The notes under the pieces were generated by a model. The model was given only the letters and a program-made list of their open reading frames with translations. It was not told where the DNA came from and did not search any database. DNA of 33,898 nt. It comes from a virus. The position numbers were made by a program, and so were the translations under genes. The stretch is from positions 1-33,898 of IMG/VR virus record IMGVR_UViG_3300044699_000107; one strand, 5' to 3'. Within the stretch, counting starts at the first letter, position 1. Each line of letters begins with the position of its first letter. This document shows, piece by piece, positions 7,466 through 26,033 of this stretch.

Positions 7466-10063
7466 TTAGCGCAGGCCAAAGCGTTTCACCACGCCGGGGA
7501 TCTGCGGGACGACCACTTCGGCGAGCACCCGCCCGTCCACCTCGAGCACGGCCGTCCCGCCGCCGCTCGTCGCCGCGTCGCCGCCGGTCCCGGCCGCCGG
7601 CCCGGTCGAGGGCATCGACACGCGACCGCCCGGCAGATCCGGCACGTCCCACACAATCGGAATATGAATCGGCGCCGGGTCGATCGCCTCGAGCGCCGCC
7701 TGGAGCGCCTCGGCGGCTTCCTTCGCGTCCGTCTCGAGCTTCCGGGCCTGCGCTTCACTCTGCTTCTGGAGTGCCGCCATCTGGCCGCGGGTCTGTTTCT
7801 CGATCACCCCATCACGCGCTCGGGCGCTTCGTCCGCGACGGAGTCCGACAGCCGTTTGAATTCCTCATCCAGGGCGCTCAGGGCATCGGTCACCCCTTCC
7901 ACGGCGGCGGGGTCGATCTCACCTAAGGCGATCCCCTGCTTGCGCGCGAAGTCCGCCCAGGCCGTCGCCAGTTGCTCGGCCGAGTACGTGCCCGCCCGCT
8001 CCATGTACTCGAAGACGGCCTTCGACTGGTCGGCGATCGCCTGCAGTTCCGCCTCGGTGGAGATGCCCATCGCGTGGATGGCGTCGATGATGGCGGTTCT
8101 GCGCGTCGAGATTCGCATCGATCGTGGCGCGGTCCCTGTCTGAGCGCGAGGCCCAGAACCGCTCGACATCCGCGCGGGCCTGCTCGGCGGACAACCCCAG
8201 GGCGAGATAGGCATCCGCCACCCCAATGAGCACGGCCGCTGAATCGTTGCCGATGGTCCGTCCGAACAGCTCCGCGTGCCCCCTTCAAGTTTCTGCGCCG
8301 CCGTCAGCGTGCCGTAGATCGAGGCGTTGAAGGCATCCAGGGCCGCGTTCGCGCGCTTCACGTCCTCGCTCATGCTCACGAACGCGATCCCGGCTTGGAT
8401 GCCCATCGAGATCAGCGCCGCGTACCCCGTCGCCATCGTCGCGATCGAGCTCGCCGTGTTGGTGGCCATCGTGGCGGCGGCCTTGGTGATGGACTCGAAC
8501 GCCTGGGTGGCGACACTCGCGGCTCCGATGACTTGGCTCATGCCCTTCACGACGCCGCCGAACGAGTCGCCGCTGATTTGCGCCAGCGTGCCCAGGCTGC
8601 TCGCCAGGGCATCGAGCTCCTGGCCGAACGACTGGGCCTTCTCTTTTGCGCCCTCGAGGAGCGCCCCGTGAACGCCCACTCCTGCGCGTAGTCGTGGATC
8701 TTCTGCGCATCGACGTGCTCGCCGAGCTTCTCGAGATCGTCGGCGAAGATGCGCGCCACGTTGTCCGTCGTCCAGCCGTGCCGCTCCAAGTCGGCGAGAT
8801 CCTTCGTGAGCGTGCGAATCTGCCCGCCGAGCTTCAGCACGCTATCATCGACGAACCCGAACTGCCCGCGACGCCGGGGAGGACGTTCTCGAGCTTCCGG
8901 ATCTCGCCGTGCAGCTTCGTGAGTTCGTCTTTGTGTTTCTGCGCGGCGGCCGCGCTCTTGGCGGAGGCCTGCTCTTGCTTCTGCAGCAGATCTTGATAGA
9001 TCCGCATTTCGGTTTCGAGATCCTGGAGCGGGCCGACCATGGCGGCCGGACCGGCCCCCGTCGCCGCGGGCAGTTCACGTCCGACCCGGCCGGTTGCTGT
9101 CAAAGGACGCGCGGCCGAAGGACCGACTGCCGGGAGCTCCGCTAGGAAGACGATCGCCTCGGCCGACATGCCCTTGAAGGTGCGCCACCAGCTCGCGAGT
9201 GTGTCGCCCGCCTTGTCCATCGCGATGACCGTCTCGTCGCTCATCCCCACCGCGGCGTTTTTCACGTCATCGAAGCCGCGCTTCAACGTCGGAGGACCGC
9301 CACGCCGGTTTTCCCAAAGAGGTCCGTCGCGAGCTGCGCCTGGAGGACGGATCTTTGACGGCGCGCACCGCATTCCGCGAGCGCGAGGAACTGGAGCTCT
9401 GGGGCCAGGTTGCGAATGTCGGCGAAGTTGATCTTGAGGATGTCCAGCGCCGACTTGAACGCCGGGTCATCGAACCGCTTCTGCATCATGTTCACAGAGG
9501 CGGCGAGTTCTTCCACCGTGTTCCCGCGTCGTCGCCGGCCACCTGGAATTTCTGCAGCCACTGGATCGACACCGCGGTCTTGTCGTGCATCTTCACGAGC
9601 GCGTCCGCATCGGCGAGCAGCGACCGCCCAAAATTCACCAGGGCCCCGACACTCAGCCCGACGCCAAAGGCCCCGAGGAGGCCCGTGACCTTTCCGAGCG
9701 ACGCCGACCAGCCCGACGTGGCGGCTTCGGCCTGCTTCGCCGCCGCCGCGATCTTCTGGAGGCCTGGCGGCACGTCGATCCCGAGCCGGCGCATCTTCTC
9801 CGGCCGCTTCCGCCGCCTTCGCGCCCGCGGCCTGGAGTTCGCGCCCGGTGCAGCCGAGCGATGCTCCCCGCATCCCCGAGGACGCGCGCCATGAGCGTCG
9901 CTTCCTGGATCAGCTTCCGGCCAGAGAACTGGTCCACCATGCGATTCAGCGCGGGGCCGACCTTGTTCGCGCCAGACTCGAAGTCCTTCAGCTTGATCAG
10001 CGATTGATCAACCGCTGTGCGGAACTGCTCAAAGTCGGCCTTAAAAACCGCTGAGACTGCCAT
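7466..10063 (-). CDS. Tape measure protein (multiply frameshifted)
   Basis: The start is at 10063 (MAVSAVFKADFEQFRTAVDQ). The N-terminal half is helical and Ala-rich (GLQKIAAAAKQAEAATSGW, KVTGLLGAFGVGLSVGALVN). It is followed by a coiled coil (RIYQDLLQKQEQASAKSAAA, KHKDELTKLHGEIRKLENVL). A hydrophobic stretch (SIATMATGYAALISMGIQAG) near 8400-8460 is the usual membrane segment. The C-terminal part contains DAIHAMGISTEAELQAIADQ and ends in a beta-like IHIPIVWDVPDLPGG region typical of siphovirus tape measures. At least six indels (near 9860, 9520, 9340, 8845, 8650, 8280 and 8100) and one near 7805 must be corrected. About 865 residues implies a tail of roughly 130 nm by the usual 1.5 angstrom per residue rule. 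The final 7466-7807 piece could instead be a separate gene with a GTG start. Confidence 0.8.
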
Positions 10064-10702
10064 CTATCCGACCCTTGCGCCTTTGGAGCGGTTGCAGCGT
10101 GCGTGCGTGGCCTGAATGTTGGCGCGGGTATGGGTCCCGCCCTTCGATAGCGGAACAATGTGGTCGAAATCTATCCCGAACAAATCAAGAGGTTTCCGAC
10201 AAATTCCACAAAGCCCCTTAGAGTCCTTCAGGACTTGTTTGAAATCGATGTCTTCAACTCGTGTTTGTTGCTTGAGCGCTCGCCGCTTCGCGTTTCGAGC
10301 GAGAAACTTTTCCCGTTGGCCAGCGTGATAGGACTTGTCGTACCAGGCTTTCTGTTTCGCTCTCTCAACATCAGTGTGGGCCGCATAGAAGGCCCGCCGC
10401 TGCGCGGAGAATGCCGTGGCGTTTCTCGCCCACCATTTCTTCTTGTAAGCTTTCACCGCCGCCGGCTTCGAGGCGTGGAGGGCCTTCTGATACGCAATCT
10501 TCTCTTTGGCGTTGGCTTTGTAGGCCGCCCTCGCTTTCGCATGTAGCCTGTCTTTATTGGTTGCTCGAAAACTCTTGTTCCGCTGACTAATGTCTTCCTT
10601 GTGTTCAGCCGCGTACGCCCGCACCTGCGCCTTGATGGCCTCTCGATGGGCCACGTAATACGCTCTGTTGTACGCCGCCGTCTGTTCCTTCGTGTACGCC
10701 AT
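10064..10702 (-). CDS. HNH endonuclease between chaperone and tape measure
   Basis: This is an intact frame of 212 residues. Residues 1-150 are a Lys/Ala/Arg-rich helical region with repeated Tyr-x-Ala-x-[HN] units (YNRAYYVAHREAIKAQ, YAAEHKEDISQRNKS, FYAAHTDVERAKQKAWY), likely for DNA contact. The C-terminus is a complete HNH nuclease: LCGICRKPLDLFGIDFDHIV, PLSKGG, NIQATHARCNRSKG. It holds two CxxC pairs (CGIC and the terminal C), the catalytic DHIVPLSKGG and the final Asn. Base composition is visibly less GC-rich than the neighbours. Because it separates the tail chaperone from the tape measure, where phages normally have nothing, it looks like an invading homing-type endonuclease. Target site unknown. 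Confidence 0.85.
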   Translation of the reverse strand: MAYTKEQTAAYNRAYYVAHREAIKAQVRAYAAEHKEDISQRNKSFRATNKDRLHAKARAAYKANAKEKIAYQKALHASKPAAVKAYKKKWWARNATAFSAQRRAFYAAHTDVERAKQKAWYDKSYHAGQREKFLARNAKRRALKQQTRVEDIDFKQVLKDSKGLCGICRKPLDLFGIDFDHIVPLSKGGTHTRANIQATHARCNRSKGARVG

Positions 10703-10725
10703 ACCTAGTTAGACACCGCGCCCAT

Positions 10726-11228
10726 TTAGTCCGACTGCTCTTTCATCAGCTCCTCGACCAGAATCGCGTAGTCTTCACGGCTCAGTTCACGGACCCAGTC
10801 GAGTCTCCAGTGGCACCGGAGGGCGATGGCAAGATCGGAGATGATTTGCTCGCGTCGCCCGGGCCGTTTTTTCGGGCCTCGAGCTCCGCCTCGACCTGCG
10901 CGTGGTGCGCATCGACGGCCGTGAGGATGTCCTGCCAGGTGATGTCGAAGTCGCAGCTGTTCAGGGCGCTTTCACTGAACGGCAGCGGCTGGCCCTCGCG
11001 GTCCACGAACGACCAGCCGAGGACATAGGCCAGGACCCGGCTCATGCCGAACCGATTGAGGTCGAGTGTCAACCCGTTCCCCAGCGCGGTCTCTTTGTAT
11101 TGGTCCGTGACCATCTTCCGGTGCTCGCCGGTGTTGAGTTCCTGTCTCACCTCGAGCCACCGACCGTGCGTGAGCGTGAGCCGCTTTGATTCAGGTGTGA
11201 CGATCGGACATTGAAACGACCATGGCAT
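10726..11228 (-). CDS. Tail assembly chaperone, -1 frameshift product (G-T type)
   Basis: Ribosomes slipping -1 on A AAA AAC at 10866-10872 leave the short chaperone frame at codon 120-121. They continue as PGRREQIISDLAIALRCHW, RLDWVRELSREDYAILVEEL and MKEQSD, ending in TAA at 10726. The total is 167 residues. In lambda and many siphoviruses the G and G-T chaperones are made by exactly this mechanism, bind the tape measure and recruit tail tube subunits. The overlap, the gene order (tail tube, chaperone, tape measure) and the clean downstream frame all agree. The order is interrupted only by the HNH gene. Confidence 0.88.
10782..11228 (-). CDS. Tail assembly chaperone, short form (G type)
   Basis: The zero-frame product is 148 residues, starting at 11228 (MPWSFQCPIVTPESKRLTLT). 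It reads through GEHRKMVTDQYKETALGNGL and YVLGWSFVDREGQPLPFSES to VEAELEARKNGPGD, then a low-complexity Ser/Gly tail (PILPSPSGATGDSTGSVN). The tail is what is expected of codons read past the slip site under little constraint. This position, just after the tail tube gene and a small accessory gene and before the tape measure, is that of the gpG-like chaperone. It is the abundant form, while the frameshifted form is the minor product. A start three bases later in the same frame (W onwards) is not possible, so the first ATG is used. Confidence 0.85.
   Translation of the reverse strand: MPWSFQCPIVTPESKRLTLTHGRWLEVRQELNTGEHRKMVTDQYKETALGNGLTLDLNRFGMSRVLAYVLGWSFVDREGQPLPFSESALNSCDFDITWQDILTAVDAHHAQVEAELEARKNGPGDASKSSPILPSPSGATGDSTGSVN
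10866..10872 (-). promoter_or_regulatory. Programmed -1 ribosomal slippery site A AAA AAC
   Basis: On the minus strand the sequence is CGA AAA AAC in the chaperone frame, giving the classic X XXY YYZ heptamer A AAA AAC. The -1 frame is open from here for 46 codons to TAA at 10726 and encodes a convincing chaperone C-domain. The heptamer is one of the most efficient bacterial slip sites known. Because it is a run of six A bases, a sequencing indel has to be considered. The run itself and the conserved phage arrangement argue that the site is real. Confidence 0.85.
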
Positions 11229-11475: not shown

Positions 11476-11874
11476 TTAGGGCTTCCGGCCCCAGCTCCCA
11501 TTGGCGACGAAGTTGCCGCTCAGCGTGTTCGGGCCACTCACCGGCACGGCGATCGAGGCGTCGAGCCACGCGGGCCCGTACCAGTAGACGGTCGGCGCCG
11601 CGGACGACGGATACAGGTACAGCTTCACGCCGTCCGTCGAATCCGCCGCGGTGAACACCGCCAGGCCGGCGTCATCCAGGAACCCCGTCACGGTCCCTTT
11701 GATGTCCTTCAGCCCTTGGACGTAGGTTTTGTTCGCGTCGCCGAACGCCGTGACTTCGGCTTTGTCGGTCGAGAGATCGAGCGTCCACCCCGACAGCGAC
11801 GTGGTCGTCGTCGCGGCGCCGGAGCCGGTCGTGCTCATGTAGATGACCGCTGCTTTTCCGTGGTATCGAGCCAT
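11476..11874 (-). CDS. Major tail (tube) protein
   Basis: The 132-residue protein from the ATG at 11874 starts MARYHGKAAVIYMSTTGSG. It contains SGWTLDLSTDKAEVTAFGDA, NKTYVQGLKDIKGTVTGFLD and DDAGLAVFTAADSTDGVKLY, then APTVYWYGPAWLDASIAVPV and NTLSGNFVANGSWGRKP. The 'STDKAEVTAFGDANKTYVQGL.D..GTVTGFLDD' pattern is characteristic of phage tail tube proteins, which polymerise as stacked hexameric rings. A longer in-frame start at 11931 exists but begins with a poor MICKRACRDG extension and overlaps the upstream glycosyltransferase. The shorter start is preferred. No indels are needed. Confidence 0.85.
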   Translation of the reverse strand: MARYHGKAAVIYMSTTGSGAATTTTSLSGWTLDLSTDKAEVTAFGDANKTYVQGLKDIKGTVTGFLDDAGLAVFTAADSTDGVKLYLYPSSAAPTVYWYGPAWLDASIAVPVSGPNTLSGNFVANGSWGRKP

Positions 11875-11893
11875 GTGTGTGGTCCCTGCGCCG

Positions 11894-13021
11894 TCAGGCC
11901 GCCCGTCGCGGCAGGCGCGTTTGCAAATCACCGATCATCGTGGCTGCCCTATTGCGCCACGACGACTCGGCCACACAGGCCGGTAACTGCGCGGCGATCC
12001 GCGCCCGCCCGTCCGGATCCGCGAGCCACGATCGGACCAAGGCCTGCGCCTCGTCCGGGGTCGTGAACGTCGGCACGAGATCCCCGAAGACTTCCGCGAC
12101 TTCCTGTCGATACGAACTCAGATGAAAGGCGCCACACGCGGCCAGTTCATACGCGCGCGGGTTGAGCGATTCGGCGTGCGCGATCGGCGGCGCCTGCGGG
12201 CCCCACCCCATCGACGTCCGATAGAGATTCAGCCCCACCTTCGCGCGGCGATACAGCGCCGCCGTCGTCGCGTTGTCCGTCTGGGCCCCGCGCACAAAGC
12301 GGCGCAGCGGATGCCGGGATCCGAGCGACTCCCAGGAGCCGTAGAGCCCGAGATCAATCCCGGTCCAGTCAATCGCTGAGAGCCACGCGACCCGTTCCTG
12401 AAACGCGGAGCCGACGAACACGACGTCATGCGCCGCGACGTCGCCGTCGCCCGGTTGGGGGCCGGATCGATGCCGCTCGGGATGCCACGCGTGCGGGAGA
12501 TAGCCGCCGTGGGGATTCACCGCGCGAAAGGCGTCGACGCTCGAGCGTTCGTTCGTCCAGTACCCGTCGACGAGCGCCGCCATCGCGAGCTCTTTCTCGA
12601 GGTCATAGGGCGACTCGGTGAACAGCATGAACACCGGCAGCGACGCGCGCGTCATGACCCGCACGACGTCGGGATGCAGAAACATCCCGCTCACGGCCAG
12701 CACGCCATCGATGCCGCCGCGAAAGACGTCGAGCCACAACGCCACCCAGAGGGCATCCCGGCCCGCCTGGAGGAAGACGTCGGCGACGTTGGGCTTGCCG
12801 ATCGCGGCGTCGCGCTTTTTCGCCTGGCGCCAGTTGTAATAGAGCCAGCTTTGCGAGCGCGCGATCCGGGTGTCGAGGGCGTAGTCCACGATCTCCACGC
12901 CGTGGTGCGTCAGGCCCTCGCGCAGGCCTGCGGCCACATCCGCTGTCGCCCAGGACGCGCCGGGGCCGATGAAGAACAGCTTCAATGAAACACCGTTGGT
13001 GTTACGCTTTGGCCATGCCAC
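11894..13021 (-). CDS. CgeB-type glycosyltransferase
   Basis: The frame is intact, about 363-375 residues. The N-terminal Rossmann core begins KLFFIGPGASW. It is followed by VADVFLQAGRDALWVALWLD and GVLAVSGMFLHPDVVRVMTR, then YLPHAWHPERH. The C-terminal lobe reads DVVFVGSAFQERVAWLSAID, AALYRRAKVGLNLYRTSMGW and LNPRAYELAACGAFHLSSYR, then VPTFTTPDEAQALVRSWLAD. The 'R..E..ACGAF.LSSYR' nucleotide-sugar site and the terminal loop identify the CgeB / glycosyltransferase group 1 family (GT-B fold). The start is uncertain: ATG at 13021 adds about 13 weak residues, and a TTG at 12985 gives a natural L-K-L-F-F-I-G start. It sits between a methyltransferase and the tail tube gene, so a virion component or host surface glycan is a plausible acceptor. 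Confidence 0.8.
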   Translation of the reverse strand: MAWPKRNTNGVSLKLFFIGPGASWATADVAAGLREGLTHHGVEIVDYALDTRIARSQSWLYYNWRQAKKRDAAIGKPNVADVFLQAGRDALWVALWLDVFRGGIDGVLAVSGMFLHPDVVRVMTRASLPVFMLFTESPYDLEKELAMAALVDGYWTNERSSVDAFRAVNPHGGYLPHAWHPERHRSGPQPGDGDVAAHDVVFVGSAFQERVAWLSAIDWTGIDLGLYGSWESLGSRHPLRRFVRGAQTDNATTAALYRRAKVGLNLYRTSMGWGPQAPPIAHAESLNPRAYELAACGAFHLSSYRQEVAEVFGDLVPTFTTPDEAQALVRSWLADPDGRARIAAQLPACVAESSWRNRAATMIGDLQTRLPRRAA

Positions 13022-13512
13022 GGTATGTGTGCCTGACGTGCGGCGTCGCGTTCACCAAGAACGGCGCCAGACTCAGGAAGTACTGCTCCCCGCGCTGCTA
13101 CCACGAGGCCACGGCGATTCCGCTGCGCGATCGGCTCTGGGCCAAGGTCGTCAAGACCGACACGTGCTGGCTGTTCACCGGCAAACACAACGAGCACGGC
13201 TACGGCCGACTGCCGATTTCTCAGGGCGGCGTGGGTAAGTGGATCTACGCGCATCGACTGGCCTGGATGGAGTTGGGGGGCGCAATTCCGCGAGGCAAGC
13301 ACCTGTGCCATCGGTGCGACACACCGAATTGCGTGCGGCCCGATCATCTGTACGTGGGCACGCCATCCGACAACATGAGAGACAAGATGGCTCGCGGACG
13401 TCTCCCTGTCGGCACGGGCCACTGGTATCACCGCAATCCGATCAAGGGTTTTAGACATCCGCAGACCGGCCGGTTCCAGAAGGTGTCCGAGCGGAGCACA
13501 AGTACCCGGTAG
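13015..13512 (+). CDS. HNH endonuclease on the opposite strand
   Basis: This 165-residue plus-strand protein (MPRYVCLTCGVAFTKNG) lies in a minus-strand operon. The N-terminus is a treble-clef zinc motif (CLTC, then KYCSPRC). The middle reads DTCWLFTGKHNEHGYGRLPI and WIYAHRLAWMELGGAIPRGK. The C-terminus (HLCHRCDTPNCVRPDHLYVG, then TPSDNMRDKMARGR) is the HNH_3-type nuclease with C-C-C-H metal ligands and the final Asn. It fills the gap between a methyltransferase stop (13451) and the glycosyltransferase start (13021) and overlaps both antisense. This is a classic picture of a homing endonuclease inserted between phage genes. An upstream ATG at 12985 is possible but less likely. Confidence 0.85.
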   Translation: MPRYVCLTCGVAFTKNGARLRKYCSPRCYHEATAIPLRDRLWAKVVKTDTCWLFTGKHNEHGYGRLPISQGGVGKWIYAHRLAWMELGGAIPRGKHLCHRCDTPNCVRPDHLYVGTPSDNMRDKMARGRLPVGTGHWYHRNPIKGFRHPQTGRFQKVSERSTSTR

Positions 13513-14107
13513 TCATTTCCGTTTGAGAGGCGAACCCCATCGCTTCGAACCGGCGCATCAGGTCGTACGCCGCGGCGCCTTCATCGGTCCATGTGCACGC
13601 GGTGATCGTCACGTCCGTGAAGTCCTTCAGGAGGAACTCCCACCCCTGACGCGCGAACCGCCAGTAGTCCTTGTAGTCCTCGGTCTGATGTGTCGGCCAG
13701 CAGAACGGCGACGTCACCAGCAGCAGGCCGCCCGGCTTCAGCACCCGGAACACCTCCGCTATCGCTGCCTTCGGATCGGTGCAGTGCTCGAGGACCTCGG
13801 TCAGCACGATCCCGTCGAACGAGTTGTCGGAGAACGGCAGCGCCAGCAGCGAGCCCACCTGGTCTTCGCCGTGTTCCCCGAACGTGACGTACCCCTCGCC
13901 GAGATACCGCCGCGGCACGTAGACCCCGACGTCGAGAATCGCCGGGCCCAGCGCCGCGCGATGCGACCACACCCAGTGCTCGAGCTGAAGACGATGGAAG
14001 TCGGGGGCCGGAAAGTCGTGCAGGCCCAGCGTCTGCTGCGACCACGCGAGCAGCTGCGCGGCCGGCACGGAGGCACTGAGCCCGTACAGCAACACGTCGC
14101 GGGTCAT
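13451..14107 (-). CDS. SAM-dependent methyltransferase (type 11)
   Basis: This intact 218-residue protein overlaps the preceding gene by an ATGA. The SAM-binding core is seen as ILDVGVYVPRRYLGEGY (motif I, with a Gly-poor loop), LALPFSDNSFDGIVLTEVLE, HCTDPKAAIAEVFRVLKPGG and LLLVTSPFCWPTHQTED. These match Methyltransf_11. The 'LTEVLEHC.DP..A..E..RVLKPGG' is diagnostic of the family. The N-terminal 35 residues and the C-terminal DVTITACTWTDEGAAAYDLM are likely substrate parts. It lies next to a CgeB glycosyltransferase, so sugar methylation is a reasonable inference. Target unknown. Confidence 0.8.
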   Translation of the reverse strand: MTRDVLLYGLSASVPAAQLLAWSQQTLGLHDFPAPDFHRLQLEHWVWSHRAALGPAILDVGVYVPRRYLGEGYVTFGEHGEDQVGSLLALPFSDNSFDGIVLTEVLEHCTDPKAAIAEVFRVLKPGGLLLVTSPFCWPTHQTEDYKDYWRFARQGWEFLLKDFTDVTITACTWTDEGAAAYDLMRRFEAMGFASQTEMTTGYLCSARTPSGTGRSADV

Positions 14108-25127: not shown

Positions 25128-26033
25128 TTAAGCTGCGAGGGCGACGTCGTCACCCCAGACCTGCACCACGCCGTCATCCGCCGCGATCCGCACGATCACG
25201 TCATCGGCGCGCACGCGGACGATCACCTCCGCGGTGGGGAGCATCGCCGGGAGCAGCGAGCTGGTCGCGGTGATCACCAGCGTGCCGGCCCCCAGCAAGC
25301 GAATCGCCGTCGTGAGCCCACTCGTCGTCGTCACGACGGCTGTGGCGGCGCCGGTCAGCGCGATCGCCGTGGTCAGGACACTGGCCGTGCCGACGGTCGC
25401 GGTCGCGGCCCCGACTAGTGCCGCCGCCGGGTTCGAGAGCCCCCCCGTCGTCGTGAGGACGACGGTCGCCGCCCCCACACAGCGGATCGCCGTCGTGAGC
25501 GCACTGGTCGTCGTGATCGCCGCACTCGCCGTGCCGAGCAGCGCAATCGCCGTGGTCAGCGTGCTCGTGGTCGCGATCGTCAGACTTGCCGCGCCGACGA
25601 GCGCGGCGCTGCCCGCGTCCAACGCGCCACTGGCGACGATCACCAGGCTCGCCGTGCCCGTCACGAGAATCTGGGTCGTGAGGCTCGAGCTGCCCGTGAT
25701 CGTGGCGGTGGCGCTCCCCACGAGGGGAATGCCCGTCGTCAGGGCACTCGTCGTCGTGATCACGGCCGTGGCGGCGCCGGCCACGCGAATCGCCGTCGTC
25801 ACCGTGCTGGTCGTCGTCACCGCGAGCGTGGCGGTCCCGCTACACGTGATCGCCGTGGTCAGGACGCTCGCCGCCGTGACGGTGGCGGTCGCGGCGCCGA
25901 GGCAGAGAATCTCCGTAGTCAGCGTCGACGCGCCCAGCACCGTGAGGGTGGCGGCCCCGACTAACGCCGCCGCCGCACCGCCGGCGGGCTGACTGATCAG
26001 CGGATTCGTGAGGCGGATGTCTTCTTGCGCCAT
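25128..26033 (-). CDS. Repeat protein, 12 units of about 20 residues (fibre or surface type)
   Basis: An intact 301-residue protein. After a short N-terminus (MAQEDIRLTNPLISQPAGGA) there are 12 tandem units of 20 (two of 21) residues with consensus LVGAATATVTTTSALTTAI. Ala and Thr dominate. The C-terminal 36 residues are different: PTAEVIVRVRADDVIVRIAA, DDGVVQVWGDDVALAA. The regular spacing suggests a beta-solenoid or beta-roll rather than disorder. Similar Ala/Thr repeats occur in phage tail or capsid decoration proteins. It lies among fibre genes, so a virion surface role is likely, but I cannot name a family. Confidence 0.7.
   Translation of the reverse strand: MAQEDIRLTNPLISQPAGGAAAALVGAATLTVLGASTLTTEILCLGAATATVTAASVLTTAITCSGTATLAVTTTSTVTTAIRVAGAATAVITTTSALTTGIPLVGSATATITGSSSLTTQILVTGTASLVIVASGALDAGSAALVGAASLTIATTSTLTTAIALLGTASAAITTTSALTTAIRCVGAATVVLTTTGGLSNPAAALVGAATATVGTASVLTTAIALTGAATAVVTTTSGLTTAIRLLGAGTLVITATSSLLPAMLPTAEVIVRVRADDVIVRIAADDGVVQVWGDDVALAA
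25239..25964 (-). repeat. Twelve tandem ~60-bp coding repeats
   Basis: The DNA of the repeat protein gene has a period of 60 bases (63 in two units). Unit 6 and unit 9 each carry one extra codon and a degenerate end (GALDAGSAA and GGLSNPAAA), dividing the array into blocks of about 5, 3 and 3 units. Codon-level differences between units show that the array is old rather than freshly amplified. Confidence 0.8.

Follow-up and report, generated by a model that had tools for sequence, protein, structure and literature searches.

A minus-strand gene in the tail region of an uncultured phage raises the question of how its protein is made. In the window (the whole stretch of DNA analyzed here, which is the entire virus record of 33,898 bases), the string A AAA AAC lies inside an open reading frame, and a second open frame continues past it in the -1 register. 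A programmed -1 ribosomal frameshift of the gpG/gpGT kind might join the two frames within a tail assembly chaperone gene. They might also come from an error in the record, from slippage of RNA polymerase, or from two ordinary overlapping genes. We regard the programmed frameshift as almost certain, because the -1 relation and the site are conserved in relatives, an HK97-type fold is predicted for the product, and the gene order agrees. The kind of frameshift is already known and ordinary; this member of it is new.

Slip site and reading frames in the window

The open reading frame at 11228-10782 reads GCC CGA AAA AAC GGC at the site, encoding R119, K120 and N121 in its center. The first A of the heptamer is the third base of codon 119, which sets the register A AAA AAC. 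The preliminary description had placed the heptamer in the zero frame at codons 119-121 and the end of the -1 frame at a TAA at 10726, and both placements were borne out, the heptamer occupying 10872-10866 on the minus strand, where it covers the last base of codon 119 and all of codons 120 and 121, and the TAA 10728-10726. Without a shift, translation ends at the zero-frame stop at 10784-10782 and yields a product of 148 aa (10782..11228, minus strand, stop included), a putative gpG-like tail assembly chaperone according to its open reading frame and predicted fold. After the heptamer, the -1 frame reads CGG CCC GGG and continues to the TAA, comprising 46 codons from the CGG at 10866 and the stop (10726..10866, minus strand). 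A shift at the heptamer would therefore add a T-domain of 46 residues and give a protein of 167 aa. The zero-frame tail on the 3' side (10782..10865, minus strand) comprises 27 codons and the stop, and had been called low-complexity; its 27 residues past N121 are indeed rich in G, S and P, with a model confidence (pLDDT) of approximately 62, and this frame is not conserved.

The occurrence of the motif is in itself uninformative. As a bare string, AAAAAAC is found once in the window, against 0.81 expected, and at least once in 55 of 100 shuffles; this count is at chance level and proves nothing. The only run of six or more A or T in the window is the one within the heptamer. What goes beyond chance is the place and frame of the heptamer, not its occurrence.

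The -1 arrangement among relatives

An initial search of IMG/VR with the N-domain of the window found no relatives, and it was the portal and the major tail protein, used as queries, that opened up the chaperone family. The loci kept were the best 80 of 163 relatives for the portal and the best 80 of 88 for the major tail protein. A first screen, by tblastn with the N and T peptides of the window itself, found the N-domain in 93 loci and a T match in 80, all 80 in the -1 frame. The frame of T matches with weak E-values is partly a matter of chance, and reliance was placed on the 62 matches at E<0.01, which were likewise all in the -1 frame. The motif A AAA AAN stood in register within the overlap in 80 of 80 first-screen loci (66 distinct). 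The set was then enlarged by loci obtained via the N-domains of relatives, one MAG contig and four named phages, with profiles of both domains. Among 216 loci examined, 70 had no N-domain at E<1e-4, 12 were cut by the contig end and 134 had both domains. "Distinct" here denotes a different 120-base stretch and not independence, since the set includes pairs that are nearly identical and contigs that are present more than once.

In the enlarged set, the C-domain lay in the -1 frame in all 134 loci with both halves (94 distinct), and in none of them did the two domains share one frame. The T profile derives from 56 sequences translated in the -1 frame; its own members match by construction, and it cannot alone force a -1 placement elsewhere. 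In 17 loci outside the profiles with good E-values for both domains, the relation was -1 in 17 and the A-heptamer was present in 16. An in-register A AAA AAN at the homologous place was observed in 89 of the 94 distinct relatives, with C, A and G as the last base in 39, 37 and 13, respectively, and was missing in five. The preliminary description had proposed looking to related phages for conservation of the heptamer and the downstream frame, and had named relatives lacking the heptamer, or frames that simply fuse, as outcomes that would speak against it; the relatives largely keep the one and always keep the other. Its C-domain encoded in the -1 frame is accordingly a conserved domain. The searches also reached their limits. 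Among 50,697 phage records, megablast with bases 1-25000 found nothing closely related to the record as a whole, and tblastn against them found no match for the window's N-domain, a relative's N-domain, the major tail protein or two heptamer-lacking members. One degenerate DNA pattern spanning the site had no match in IMG/VR.

Several further features of the alignment point in the same direction. First, in 67 sequences (the window and 66 relatives), the -1 frame stays open for 33 codons past the site in every case, with stops over the same distance in 62 of the 67 for the zero frame and in 52 for the +1 frame. Second, mean pairwise amino-acid identity past the site is 0.419 in the -1 frame, against 0.273 and 0.265 in the others. 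Third, an in-register AAAAAA is absent from all 6,432 upstream codon positions of these 67 loci. Fourth, the first Lys codon at A-type sites is AAA in 89 of 89, compared with 27% of upstream Lys codons (131 of 477, all 94 distinct relatives). Fifth, a tree of 95 sequences requires at least 16 changes of the base following the A-run, the states including the C_CCT rows described below, with the A-run kept.

These data bear directly on the possibility that a sequencing or assembly indel has split one continuous gene, in which case gain or loss of a single A would merge the two frames. The record does invite this suspicion. The start of its tape measure gene (9071..10063, minus strand; located by tblastn with the window's own tape-measure start and the relatives' tape measure ORFs) is readable only piecewise in different frames, the tape measures of relatives matching it in frames 0, 2, 1 and 0 successively from 10063 to 9071, that is, three frames within about 1 kb, and 46 relatives have tape-measure ORFs of more than 500 aa where the window has broken pieces. 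The G-T step differs from these indels because it is common to every relative with both domains: the identical -1 relation recurs in 94 distinct sequences from many metagenomes, and no fused gene was found in the 134 loci. We therefore give an indel almost no credence, and as a general account it appears refuted by the relatives. The earlier advice to keep the G-T frameshift apart from accidental indels was sound, as the indels break the tape-measure gene instead. The A count at the window's own site is taken to be correct from its agreement with relatives, in a record with frame breaks elsewhere. Thus, even in a record that does contain such breaks, the -1 relation should be left as it stands and not be repaired.

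According to another explanation, the two frames belong to two ordinary overlapping genes, with separate initiation of the -1 frame and no fusion. Frame conservation taken alone is compatible with this arrangement. However, the conserved part of T starts a few residues at most from the slip site, and separate initiation has no need for an in-register A6, yet the Lys codon is AAA in all A-type sites despite a preference for AAG. We consider separate initiation extremely unlikely. A further explanation is transcriptional slippage on the A-run, in which mRNAs with one base more or less would yield the long protein by ordinary translation. Runs of nine A are long enough for polymerase slippage. 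In the 89 sequences the run measures 6 in 27, 7 in 12, 8 in 9 and 9 in 41, and polymerase slippage may occur in some A9 members. However, the run in the window is only six, as in the 27 relatives of that class, and the register of the tandem-slip heptamer to the zero frame is kept in all 89. As the explanation of this locus, transcriptional slippage is thus very unlikely.

Proposed mechanism of the shift and the C_CCT clade

We infer from this conservation a programmed frameshift in which ribosomes, and not RNA polymerase, would slip, and in which the slip rate and the binding roles would be as follows. Most ribosomes would read straight through A AAA AAC to the zero-frame stop and release the gpG-like chaperone. 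In a minority, tRNA-Lys and tRNA-Asn on AAA AAC would move back by one base onto AAA AAA, and reading would go on with CGG CCC, appending the T-domain to give a gpGT-like protein. By analogy with lambda, the N-domain would bind the tape measure protein and the T-domain would recruit the major tail protein, and the ratio of G to GT would be set by the slip rate. The anatomy of the site fits tandem tRNA slippage. A low rate of shifting would be expected here by analogy with known systems, A_AAA_AAC being described as a weak site in E. coli relative to A_AAA_AAG (PMC5009743).

No stimulator of the shift could be demonstrated. A structure of 80 bases on the 3' side of the heptamer (10786..10865, minus strand; -31 kcal/mol) has a z of -1.83 against shuffles, and the folding model makes it a possible downstream stimulator. 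Across the family, the RNA 5-45 bases downstream of the site folds slightly more stably than other parts of the gene (p 0.0035), with a mean z of -0.76 and 11 of 67 sequences below -2. RNAalifold on the family returned no consensus structure, and Rfam had no match in 10600-11100. A Shine-Dalgarno stimulator was also considered and rejected. The signal was enriched relative to a codon-shuffled control, one value of which was an artefact of the energy function, and was gone with a synonymous control that preserves the amino acids (z no lower than -1.9); as the amino acids explain it, it is not a sign of a stimulator.

The five distinct relatives without the A-heptamer (L144, L149, L150, L176 and L198) still have T in the -1 frame. 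All five have C_CCT in register at the same codon, 117 or 118 codons past the start of the match; this motif is rare, with 6 occurrences in 11,334 codons of 82 A-heptamer loci. Their N-domains are 34-67% identical, and they form one starred clade with support of 97/96, in which L203, a sequence with A AAA AAC, is nested among them; the tree requires two changes of site type. This pattern points to slippage of a single proline tRNA from CCT to CCC. We consider it somewhat more likely than not that this clade swapped A AAA AAN for a four-base, single-tRNA -1 site at the corresponding place, where a rare codon for proline is used, and that L203 reverted to A AAA AAC. C_CCT as a candidate replacement site is a strong lead rather than proof, because the motif was picked with the sequences already in view and the five are relatives of one another. 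In the window itself, the ordinary heptamer is present.

A -1 site of the C_CCT type in tail assembly genes was not found in the literature searched, most subscription papers lying outside its scope. The eight backward motifs given in section 7 of the PRFect paper do not include a plain four-base one (PMC10885494). For other phages, +1 shifts at CCC_U are described in gp17.1 of SPP1 (PMC6316719) and in Listeria phages (PMC5009743), and CCCUUUUUUU with a -2 shift is reported in phage 9g (PMC4276943). If true, the C_CCT case would show that a tail-gene -1 shift can do without a tandem slippery heptamer, and that one shift mechanism has been exchanged for another in nature. The occurrence of A6, A9 and C_CCT within one gene context provides natural variants for studying what a bacterial -1 site needs.

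Product, gene neighbourhood and known systems

The product could not be named from sequence databases. The window's G, T and GT had no matches in Pfam; among 56 members of the family, the one Pfam match at E<=0.01 was a weak one to phiKZ_IP, and none was to a chaperone family. Of these 56 members, 20 matched phrog_9046, which is annotated without function (best E 1.5e-9), and the T-domain had no PHROG match. By these comparisons the family had no name before, lacking a match in Pfam and having only a PHROG of no assigned function, and phrog_9046 is very likely this chaperone. A widespread, unnamed chaperone family of uncultured phages, with phrog_9046, thus gains a reliable annotation.

The AlphaFold2 model of G has a mean pLDDT of 85.6, and its long helix ends at residue 121, precisely at the slip site, past which the pLDDT falls. 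In BFVD, the N-domain model matched the tail assembly chaperones of Bacillus phages 019DV002 (E 2.9e-6) and Gemini (E 7.3e-6). The top PDB row in VIA-align was the HK97 tail assembly chaperone, 2ob9, with a Z of 5.2, middling by the program's own note, over 91 residues at 3.4 A, the next row having 3.1. Foldseek found nothing in the PDB at E<=0.001 for this model, and the N-domain profile against PDB sequences gave only weak matches of unrelated name (best E 0.033). The N-domain is tentatively predicted to have the HK97 tail-assembly-chaperone fold, with 8% identity to 2ob9, its best solved structure. Profile comparison by hhalign yielded no match to the HK97-like chaperone of Salmonella phage SP-016, with probabilities of 0.4 and 1.0 percent for two SP-016 proteins, each entered as a single sequence. 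The T-domain is modeled as three helices with a pLDDT of 88.5, and this model matched nothing in BFVD at E<=0.001.

In phage lambda gpG/gpGT the site is G GGA AAG, as opposed to A AAA AAC in the window. The frameshift is reportedly described as conserved in tail genes by Xu, Hendrix and Duda in 2004. The preliminary description had spoken of a lambda-like G / G-T system; this stands for the principle and the gene order. No Pfam chaperone family is matched, and the best solved structure is that of HK97. Named HK97-like phages have a related portal and a gene order like that of the window. Lambda G-T is described as a low-level -1 shift with a 30:1 product ratio and T binding the major tail subunit (PMC5009743), and in an HK97-like cluster a shift of 6-7% is reported for two of the chaperone genes (PMC3711429). 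The haloarchaeal virus HCTV-2 is reported with A_AAA_AAC as its G-T site (PMC5009743), a heptamer in common with the window in a virus whose host is archaeal.

The chaperone gene lies between the major tail protein upstream (11479..11880, minus strand; phrog_10528, E 1.7e-9) and the N-terminus of the tape measure downstream. An HNH endonuclease gene (10064..10702, minus strand; PF01844 E 3.6e-10, phrog_338 E 1.3e-14) separates GT from the tape measure in the window. In most relatives the T stop and the tape-measure start are close together, the listed gaps being mostly -1 to 6 bases, with 745 in L145. An HNH gene behind GT was also seen in L145 (7180-7905) and in L089/L090 (L089:3901-4680); these and the window stand apart from one another on the tree, and a mobile endonuclease has perhaps inserted behind GT more than once.

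Exchange may also affect the chaperone module itself. The relatives of the major tail protein in L116, L118, L121/L122 and L136/L137 (55-63% identity) have genes behind them without a match to this chaperone family, which looks like a swap of chaperone modules next to related major tail proteins. In 21 major-tail-protein loci without the N-domain that were inspected, some were cut off by the contig end and others had a different gene there. Within the tail region of the window, ORFs of non-structural appearance were noted at 11897-13021 and 13454-14107, by eye glycosyltransferase-like and methyltransferase-like, respectively. Elsewhere in the window, an ORF of 301 aa at 25131-26033 consists of imperfect repeats such as ALVGAATATV.
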